Origin: Pempheris klunzingeri
Taxonomy: Eukaryota; Chordata; Actinopteri; Acropomatiformes; Pempheridae
DNA: 64,000 bases
Assembly (NCBI RefSeq): GCF_042242105.1
Contig: NC_092022.1
Coordinates: 13,140,001 to 13,204,000, forward strand
Reading direction: 5' to 3'
The notes below the pieces were generated by a model that ran no database searches, had not been told where the DNA came from, and saw only the letters and a list, made by a program, of their open reading frames with translations. Positions 56,901 through 59,900 of this stretch are shown here, in pieces. Positions within the stretch are counted from its first letter, which is position 1. Each line of letters starts with the position of its first letter. Made by a program: the position numbers and the translations under genes.

Positions 56901-59900
56901 ACGACATTGGTGGAGATTAAAAGGATTAAGTTGGATTTGGGCAACATGCAGAGCAAAGCAGCTAGCATGGTAAAGTCAGTGAGCATGTGTACCTTGAGCT
57001 TAGACTGAATCTCACGCGACTTTCTCTTGGCCAAGACTTGCAGGTGACTAGAGACCTGATTAAAAACAGGATGAAGGAAAGAGAATGGGAGAAAAAAGGG
57101 AAAGGAAAGGAAAAAGAGGAGGGGAGGTGACTACAGTGGAAAGGGAGATCTGAATCAGTGGGCACCCACCTTGATGCTTGTCTGGTATTCTCGTACCCTC
57201 TTACGTGCCAGAACCTGAATGTGACTAGACACCTAAAGGGTTACCCCCATGAAAGAACACACATTCACAGGATGATTTCACAACTTTCAGTAATCACAAG
57301 CCAGTAATAACAAGATGAATGGATAAATCACAACAGAATTAAATAAACATATCAGGAGGTATGTAAGCTGCACTCGTCAAAAGCTATTACATCAACACAT
57401 ATAAATAGATAATCATAATAGTCATCATTGCATACCTGTTTGCGTGTGCGCGTCTTTCCTGTTCGCAGCTTGATATACCGAGCTATCAGCTCATTTCGAC
57501 CTAAAATTTAGAAAATAACAGATTACAATCAGAGATGAGCACTGCCTGCGAGGCAATTTGTGGCTGTGTGGAGTACTATAACCTCTGCGTTCATCACCTG
57601 AGGCACACCTGAGCATAGGTCAATCTCAAAGCAGTGTGCAGTTTTGCTACAGTTTCCAGGGTGAATGACTTGTTTCCTCAAAACGATTACCCATACACAA
57701 TCATTAAGAAAAAAAAAATAAATGTAAGCATCACAAACACCCAAAATAAGTCTTTTTTAACGAGACCAACTCTGTTACCTCTAACCCTTGGTATTCACAT
57801 TATTATACACCTAGCTAGTGGCGGCTGATCCCCTTTTGCTGGTAAAAACATCTCCATGTCTTGCGGCATGTGGGCCCCTACATTTTTTTATGTTGATCCA
57901 AGAATGGACTCAGATCAAAACTGAATTGTGCAATTTTCTGTTGAAATTACCTGAAATGTGATTATCTGTAATGATTTTGTCAACAGAAAATGACATACAA
58001 GCAGAAAACCCATAACTCTGGAACAAATTTGATGACACTTGATGTTGACTTGTGAAACTGTCCATGGGCATGCATCCAGAGCCGATCAAATGAATGTCAA
58101 AGGGCCCTGCCTTAGTTTTTGTCTGAAGTACACTAACAAAACAGACAGGCATGTTTTGAAATAACACAAGTGTAACCACTGGTGCAACCAGTGATCTCAT
58201 TCATTCACTGGAACAAATGTAAGCCTAAAAGGGAATAATGGCCACAGTGAGCGCTCTAATACATTAACATTAAGCCAAATTTAATCAGCGCTTGATCTGA
58301 AGTCTAATGCACGTCTCTATTTTGGTTTGTCCTCACAATGTTAATCTTCTGAAGTACAATCATAACACATCTAGCAAGACCACGAGTCCTTCGACCTGAG
58401 GTTCACAGTGACACTGAAGATTTCAACTGGTCAAATGTATGTTTAGGTTGTACTGAATTCAGTGATCAAGCTTTGGTATGAAGCAAAGGAGGACGAGGAA
58501 TGATGTGGATACTTTTTCCATCCCTATAATGGATCTGAAATCATGCCAGTATAATATGAAAGTTTAATGTGACGGCACTCAAGTGTAAGATGTGAGAAGA
58601 TGGTGAGCCTCCTCTAAGTCTACTCCATTCCCTCAAACACAATTACAAGGATTGTCAAGCTTTCAATTTCTGTGGCTGTGTGATATTCTCATTAAGGACA
58701 GCCTGTGTTAATCTAGAGTCAAATTTGGCCTTGCTCGATGGCAGAGCTCCAAAGCAGACAGAAAAGTGGTGGGAACCGAGGGGAAAGAGAGGAGAGTCAT
58801 CATATAGTTAACGCACTTCCAAAATGTGGTCACTACAGACTGCCTGGTCAGCTTTTTCGTTCTCTGCCTCCCCCGGCTCTAAGCCACACCTGATGATCTG
58901 CTCGTCTCTAATCATAACTGGTGTGCAACTCTATTCACTCTGCTGCAGATGTCAGAATTAGAGAGAGGTTTAGGATAAAAAAAAGTGACTAAATGAAGCC
59001 TTACAGACTTTATTTCACTGCTGTAAACATTTAATAACATATATGCATCACACCTCCTTCTTTCTGGGAAATGGTGTGATGGTGTAGAGACTTAGGTCAC
59101 ATCAGACTGACTCACATCAGCTCTGTAGAGTTCCCAGAATAGAGAATTCCCCAAAATCAACAGAAGGGGCTGACTCAGACAGCAGTCTGCTCCAATTCCC
59201 AAAACAGGACACATGGACTTTCCTGCAGCCTACCACTACTCCACATGAGGCCAAAGCGCTTTTTTATTAGATCTCGACGCTAGAACAGCATGCACATTGG
59301 AGTATGAGTTAGGAAACACTGCATTACATTGCAAAAGTGACTATGCTTGTTGATAAATCATGTCATTTGGTGTTATAATTAATCTGTTTCTGCATTCATC
59401 TGCCACAGAAATCAAGCAATGGGGTCACACAATTAAAAATAACTGCATACAAGCATATTTCACTTAGGACCTGTTGAGTCTGACTGTCTCACAGCACGGT
59501 GTGAAGGCGCACTGCCAAATATGCATCCGAGTGAGCCTCCCTTTGATCTGACAGGAGTTAGTGGGTACTCATCGCAAAGAAATTCAACCACATCCCCAAA
59601 AAGATTTGATTTTGTGAGTCAGAAGCTGTGTTCACCAAGCCCTGTACTTATCAAACTGCTAGAAGTATGAGTTGGACTGGATTTAACTTTTACTTATATC
59701 GCTTAACTTAAGAATTGAGGCTAATTATCAGATTTCTTTGGACTTACTTTAAGATTTAAGAGAGCTCCAGGGAAGAAATGTAGAATTGATCCTAGATATG
59801 CAGCTCCTGTTTTGGAGAAACTACAAGGTCATCGGTCATGGTAGATAATATGTTAGCTGGAGCAATATGACCCTCTGAATGGGTTTTTGTTTGTTCTTTT

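Follow-up and report, generated by a model that had tools for sequence, protein, structure and literature searches.

Tandem homologous helix-3 exons in tead3 of Pempheris klunzingeri: a probably ancient alternative pair shared with a tead1 gene

The tead3 gene in the window (the whole 64,000-nt stretch of DNA that was analysed) was found to carry two adjacent, homologous exons of 63 nt, here called A and B, for the helix-3 end of its TEA domain, the part of this growth-control transcription factor that binds DNA. The best explanation, to which we give a probability of about 0.7 from comparisons within one genome, is that the two homologous exons are alternatives to one another and form a pair of ancient origin; the pair would have arisen by an exon duplication before the split of tead1 and tead3. 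We infer that both exons are spliced in, that one mostly excludes the other, and that exchanging them alters mainly the regulation of the protein.

Both exons lie on the minus strand at the coordinates that a sequence-only reading of the window had given them, and the upstream exon, the 12-nt microexon and the next coding stretch were also found where that reading had placed them (Table 1). Each of the two is of phase 0/0, encodes 21 residues and is bordered by an AG acceptor and a GT donor (..ccctttag and gtgggt for A; ..ttaatcag and gtacac for B); the encoded end of the helix-2 exon upstream is RTRKQ. In the window, A and B were identical at 37/63 nucleotides and 12/21 residues. Residues 1-9, VSSH(I/L)QVLA, which form the start of helix 3, contained a single difference (I/L), and the other eight of the nine differing residues fell within positions 10-20, next to the microexon. 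The two exons are thus adjacent, homologous, equal in length (63/63 nt) and compatible in phase, the properties by which mutually exclusive exons are recognised. The reading frame was kept in 6/6 joined combinations (A alone and B alone, each tried with the microexon and without it, and both or neither with the microexon); since inclusion of A and B together and skipping of both are in frame, the frame itself enforces no choice between them.

Table 1. Features of the window tead3 gene and of the related TEAD genes; positions given with a strand are those of the window
Feature	Position	Strand	Remark or basis
tead3 exon (helix 2 region of TEA domain)	57436..57500	-	presumed donor to A or B
Exon A, 63 nt, helix-3 exon, valine at position 13	57170..57232	-	sequence
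Intron A-B, 114 nt, long pyrimidine tract	57056..57169	-	sequence
Exon B, 63 nt, helix-3 exon with KRKS basic-serine site	56993..57055	-	sequence
UGCAUG, RBFOX-type word (presumed)	56945..56950	-	candidate; after 42 nt of intron downstream of B
10-mer TATGCGCTTC, candidate intronic element	56805..56814	-	178 nt into intron after B
12-nt microexon AMNL (VTSM is the equivalent in tead1_C1)	54175..54186	-	sequence
Next coding stretch, start 53766	53684..53766	-	sequence; 3' limit provisional
Exon A of tead3_C2	19108464 (L010)		
Exon A of tead1_C1	15017765 (L012)		
tead3 (TEAD3/TEF-5)	C11 (window); C2		YAP-binding-domain PDB match
tead1 (TEAD1/TEF-1)	C1; C5 at 24.87 Mb		YAP-binding-domain PDB match
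tead4 (TEAD4/TEF-3)	C5 at 7.86 Mb		YAP-binding-domain PDB match

To place the gene among its relatives, the genome of the window itself (646 Mb), the only vertebrate genome used, was searched. Five TEAD genes were found, each with two exons matched by the Pfam search for the TEA domain (10 in all) and four matched by the YBD search (20 in all); the TEA domain exons upstream of the A/B pair were present in the window tead3. Gene identity was determined by matching the joined pieces of each YAP-binding domain against the PDB. The best match of the window gene was TEF-5, with 359.5 bits against 342.6 bits for TEF-3 (TEAD4), in agreement with the name tead3 that the gene had been given before. The TEF and TEAD names were equated as in the relevant part of PMC4004540. 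Elsewhere in the window, where the Pfam search covered 7/34 listed ORFs, the ORF at 23975-24487 (+), about 27 kb past the 3' end of tead3, gave a Troponin match (E 5.6e-8) and is probably an exon of a troponin gene, and the ORF at 32125-32610 (-) gave a weak armadillo-repeat match (E 0.0049, under the curated cut-off) and is perhaps a plakophilin-like exon.

A protein search of the whole genome with exon A revealed at least eight places with such an exon, three of A-type and five of B-type, all of them without stops. A six-frame scan of nine genome regions and of window positions 50000-64000, and a sense-strand scan at lower threshold which ran in each gene from the helix-2 exon to beyond the DQ exon, agreed with the genome search on eight such exons. 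The pair was present in 3/5 of the TEAD genes found, namely both tead3 genes (C11, that of the window, and C2) and one tead1 (C1), in the order A then B and at the same position and phase in all three; the intron between A and B measured 142 nt in tead3_C2 and 90 nt in tead1_C1, as against 114 nt in the window. For tead4 and the other tead1, the sense-strand scan and the genome protein search revealed a single B-type exon each and no A-type exon. Recurring as it does in three genes of this genome, the pair is not a chance arrangement.

The two types were readily told apart by a few residues. Residue 11 was K in A-type and R in B-type exons and residue 20 was I in A-type and L in B-type (8/8 exons for each), residue 19 was S, G or A in A-type and K in B-type (again 8/8), and residue 13 was V in 3/3 A-type exons and S in 4/5 B-type exons, the fifth, that of tead4, having A. 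Residue 13 belongs to a KRKS run in the B exon of the window and to RRKS in the remaining B-type exons except that of tead4. Among the DNA-binding chains of the PDB, those of TEAD1 (RRKS) and TEAD4 (RRKA) were both B-type, the five matched sequences being without TEAD3 or TEAD2. We take human TEAD3 to be A-type, with Val at position 13, and presume that mammals have retained the B exon. The word TCTAG was observed near the exon start in 6/6 exons of the pair-bearing genes and in 0/2 single exons, and is a possible splicing signal, although seen in very few rows. The 12-nt microexon was seen in the three genes with A and B (AMNL, AMNL and VTSM) and was not found in the two genes without A, where failure of the one narrow pattern used ([AVS][MT][NST][LMIV] between AG and GT[AG]) is no proof of absence; the microexon and the A exon may be two alternative units that are kept or lost together.

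Substitutions between the two tead3 genes were then counted by the method of Nei and Gojobori. Exon A of the window and of C2 differed by 11 synonymous and 3 non-synonymous changes (dN 0.066, pS 0.72), and exon B by 13.5 synonymous and 2.5 non-synonymous changes (dN 0.054, pS 0.90). As synonymous change between these genes was near or past saturation and amino-acid changes were few, both A and B are held by selection on the protein. Judging from these counts, both exons are conserved and under coding constraint, as is expected of exclusive exons. The claim that tandem homologous coding exons lie in the TEA domain was borne out, and the conservation of both of them was confirmed by their recurrence among the TEAD genes of the same genome.

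To estimate the age of the pair, a maximum-likelihood tree was built from the eight exons (63 columns). The three A-type exons were split from the five B-type exons with support 96/94, and the four other inner branches were poorly supported. Constraining A and B of one gene to stand together was rejected for every pair-bearing gene (AU p 0.002 for C11, 0.003 for C2 and 0.044 for C1), as was grouping the four tead3 exons (AU p 0.016); grouping the three tead1 exons gave p 0.054 and was not rejected at 0.05. The exons are thus grouped by type and not by gene, which is best read as a single duplication older than the split of tead1 from tead3. The simplest account would be that the exon was duplicated in tandem once, ahead of that split, and that one tead1 later lost A. 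The separation of the two genes belongs to the early vertebrate genome duplications. The sequence-only reading had described one exon as TEAD3-like and the other as TEAD1/2-like, a description that has to be revised, because a tead1 gene of the same genome has an A-type exon and the exons group by type; they are better regarded as two old exon types. Since the same pair is found in sister genes, tead1 included, the choice between A and B looks very old and probably matters.

It would also be conceivable that tead3 and tead1 duplicated the exon independently and that the copies became alike by convergence or gene conversion, and the short alignment, the grouping of the tead1 exons which was not rejected (p 0.054) and the unexpected nearness of the A exons of tead3_C2 and tead1_C1 could all be cited for it. 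However, these two A exons, identical at 52/63 nt and 19/21 residues (dS 0.95), were closer to one another than either was to its own B (41 nt and 14 residues in tead3_C2; 43 nt and 14 residues in tead1_C1), and position, order and phase were identical in all three genes, which makes independent origins highly improbable. The A exon of tead3_C2 was in fact nearer to that of tead1_C1 than to that of its tead3 partner in the window (49/63 nt, dS 2.4), which simple descent does not predict; conversion, rate differences or constraint at synonymous sites could account for it.

Splice sites were scored with a matrix typed from recall, whose maximum is 12.6. The window donors scored 9.8 for A and 4.0 for B (GTACAC, weak), and the acceptors contained 15/19 pyrimidines in 19 nt for B and 11/19 for A. 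The acceptor of A in tead1_C1, with a long T run and caaaatg, ends in GAG, a poor 3' splice site, and in that gene the use of A may be minor or under tight regulation. Given the weak B donor of the window and this GAG acceptor, a pair may contain one exon that is seldom spliced in. A further explanation along these lines would be that the gene relies on one exon of the pair, the other, B in the window gene or A in tead1_C1, being a relic or of minor use; the two poor sites would agree with it, as would the second tead1 and tead4, in which an A-type exon was not found. On the other hand, B of the window and B of C2 showed 13 synonymous and 1 non-synonymous codon differences, dN was 0.05 with pS 0.90, and no stops were present, so that we consider a relic or minor exon improbable. 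An mRNA that contains both A and B, and hence encodes helix 3 twice in its TEA domain, is permitted by the frame, but it would presumably duplicate a helix within a compact three-helix domain, and only one exon was found in tead4 and in one tead1; such a product can be given very little weight.

How mostly exclusive use of A and B could be brought about was considered from the intron between them. Branch points were taken as matches to the five-letter consensus yTnAy alone. The window intron, which is 80% Y, contained such words at +15, +98 and +110, with TTCAT 17 nt and TTAAT 5 nt upstream of B, and the sole word of the corresponding intron was 35 nt from the A donor in tead3_C2 and 37 nt in tead1_C1, where an AG follows shortly downstream of the word. 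Steric exclusion between the exons of alpha-tropomyosin serves as the comparison case. The short distances from donor to branch-like word (15, 35 and 37 nt) would favour steric exclusion, whereas the second word in the window and the AG in tead1_C1 count against it.

Shared intronic elements were also looked for. The 10-mer TATGCGCTTC lies within the intron after B in the window, whereas in tead3_C2 and tead1_C1 it sits at the donor of exon B, its first bases overlapping the donor site; it was present in 3/3 genes with the pair and in 0/2 without it, within the searched regions. For the window gene, its expected number was 0.0001 over 191 start positions downstream of B and 0.002 over the whole 3.9-kb region. 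The word was chosen after looking, and as a candidate shared element it is suggestive. Local alignment of the 200-nt flanks or of whole A-B introns (15 comparisons) revealed no clear conserved block: over all comparisons, the real score was reached by 7 to 296 of 300 mononucleotide shuffles, and the figures for the A-B introns (13, 34 and 10 of 300) are confounded by pyrimidine composition. The word UGCAUG, which we take to be the RBFOX-type motif, was rejected as a shared code: in the form TGCATG, tead3_C2 had five copies in the 250 nt upstream of A, mostly in an alternating purine-pyrimidine stretch, and one after B, but tead1_C1 had no copy in the 250 nt on either side (upstream of A, downstream of B), and one preceded the lone B exon of tead4, which lacks the pair.

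Turning to the effect of the swap, the helix-2 exon would normally be spliced to either A or B, and this in turn to the microexon or linker, and a single tead3 gene would then give two TEA domains in which helix 3 starts in nearly the same way and ends differently; the pair appears to have been retained in both tead3 genes and one tead1. Helix 3 is described as the DNA-recognition helix in part of a review (PMC12672301). That the swapped segment covers helix 3, as the sequence-only reading had it, was upheld. Since residues 1-9 are nearly identical and the other differences lie at 10-20, however, a new DNA specificity seems less likely than a change in regulation or in the behaviour of the linker. 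A three-residue basic run is kept in both A and B, and a change of localisation between the two forms is thus not expected.

Position 13 presumably corresponds to Ser-102 in human TEAD1 numbering, and Ser-102 of TEAD1 is said, by Gupta and colleagues in 2000, to be a PKA site. The B-type exons, with their basic-basic-X-Ser site, would offer a route for PKA to lower DNA binding, and the A-type exons, with Val at the same site, would escape from PKA. It was the serine at this presumed site, taken together with reported inhibition by PKA, that led us to propose a regulatory switch. Phosphorylation of TEAD by PKA and PKC is inhibitory through disrupted DNA binding, as given in a section of the review PMC6628201. 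In its full form the proposal is that the swap, older than the tead1/tead3 split, sets cell by cell whether cAMP/PKA signalling can remove TEAD from DNA, the B form, with its serine where the recognition helix ends, being removable and the A-Val form staying bound, and that the mammalian paralogues later fixed one state each while fish tead3 and one tead1 keep the choice; we put this forward tentatively and hold it to be rather unlikely. Somewhat short of even odds may be given to a different biochemical effect of an otherwise identical pair, in which both exons are expressed and the end of helix 3, the linker and AMNL alter DNA affinity, spacing or partner contacts, and not kinase control. 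The 8/9 A/B differences at positions 10-20 adjoin the microexon, as this would predict, and the 12-nt exon 6 of TEAD1 is reported, in part of a review, to affect interaction with YAP and not DNA binding (PMC10167241); yet V in 3/3 A-type and S in 4/5 B-type exons at position 13 would be left unexplained, though another constraint there is possible. As regards the biochemical effect, a change in linker or partner contacts is at least as likely as a kinase switch.

For chick TEAD3, Azakie and colleagues reportedly described in 1996 the isoforms DTEF-1A and DTEF-1B, of 433 and 432 residues, which alternative splicing makes different where the TEA domain reaches its C-terminal limit. That case would concern the same gene and the same end of the TEA domain as A and B, in which event the TEAD3 part of our finding would be known since 1996, although the two lengths do not exactly fit a swap of 21 residues for 21. 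To our knowledge, that report contains no fish or tead1 counterpart, and what may be new is the pair in tead1 together with the dating. No description of the A/B pair was found in the open-access texts searched. The substitution of homologous exons is in itself a known and often ancient kind of event, and the substitutions in tropomyosin, alpha-actinin and others resemble A and B in that the exons are tandem, homologous, equal in phase, ancient and kept in paralogues, according to part of PMC4465641. Neither TEAD nor TEAD1 or TEAD3 is named in the main text of PMC9741552, PMC4465641 or PMC5740500, the gene lists of which sit in supplements. Exon 6 of TEAD1, a 12-nt microexon linked to RBFOX2 in the passages concerned of the review PMC10167241, is alternatively spliced at or just after the TEA domain, much as a 12-nt microexon follows the A/B pair, but it is a cassette microexon and not a swap of homologous exons. 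TEAD4-216 likewise involves splicing at the helix-3 end of the TEA domain; however, according to the part of PMC3382240 that treats it, this form is a much larger deletion and not a replacement, lacking part of exon 3, exons 4 to 9 and part of exon 10, and with helix 3, an NLS and further domains lost it becomes a cytoplasmic repressor.

It is through the TEADs that Hippo-YAP signalling reaches DNA. If the two versions of the TEA domain differ in kinase sensitivity or linker behaviour, the choice of isoform would be an extra layer of Hippo-YAP signalling, and the differences among paralogues at position 13 (Ser in the PDB chains of TEAD1, Ala in those of TEAD4 and, presumably, Val in human TEAD3) could be traceable to old alternative exons that became fixed.
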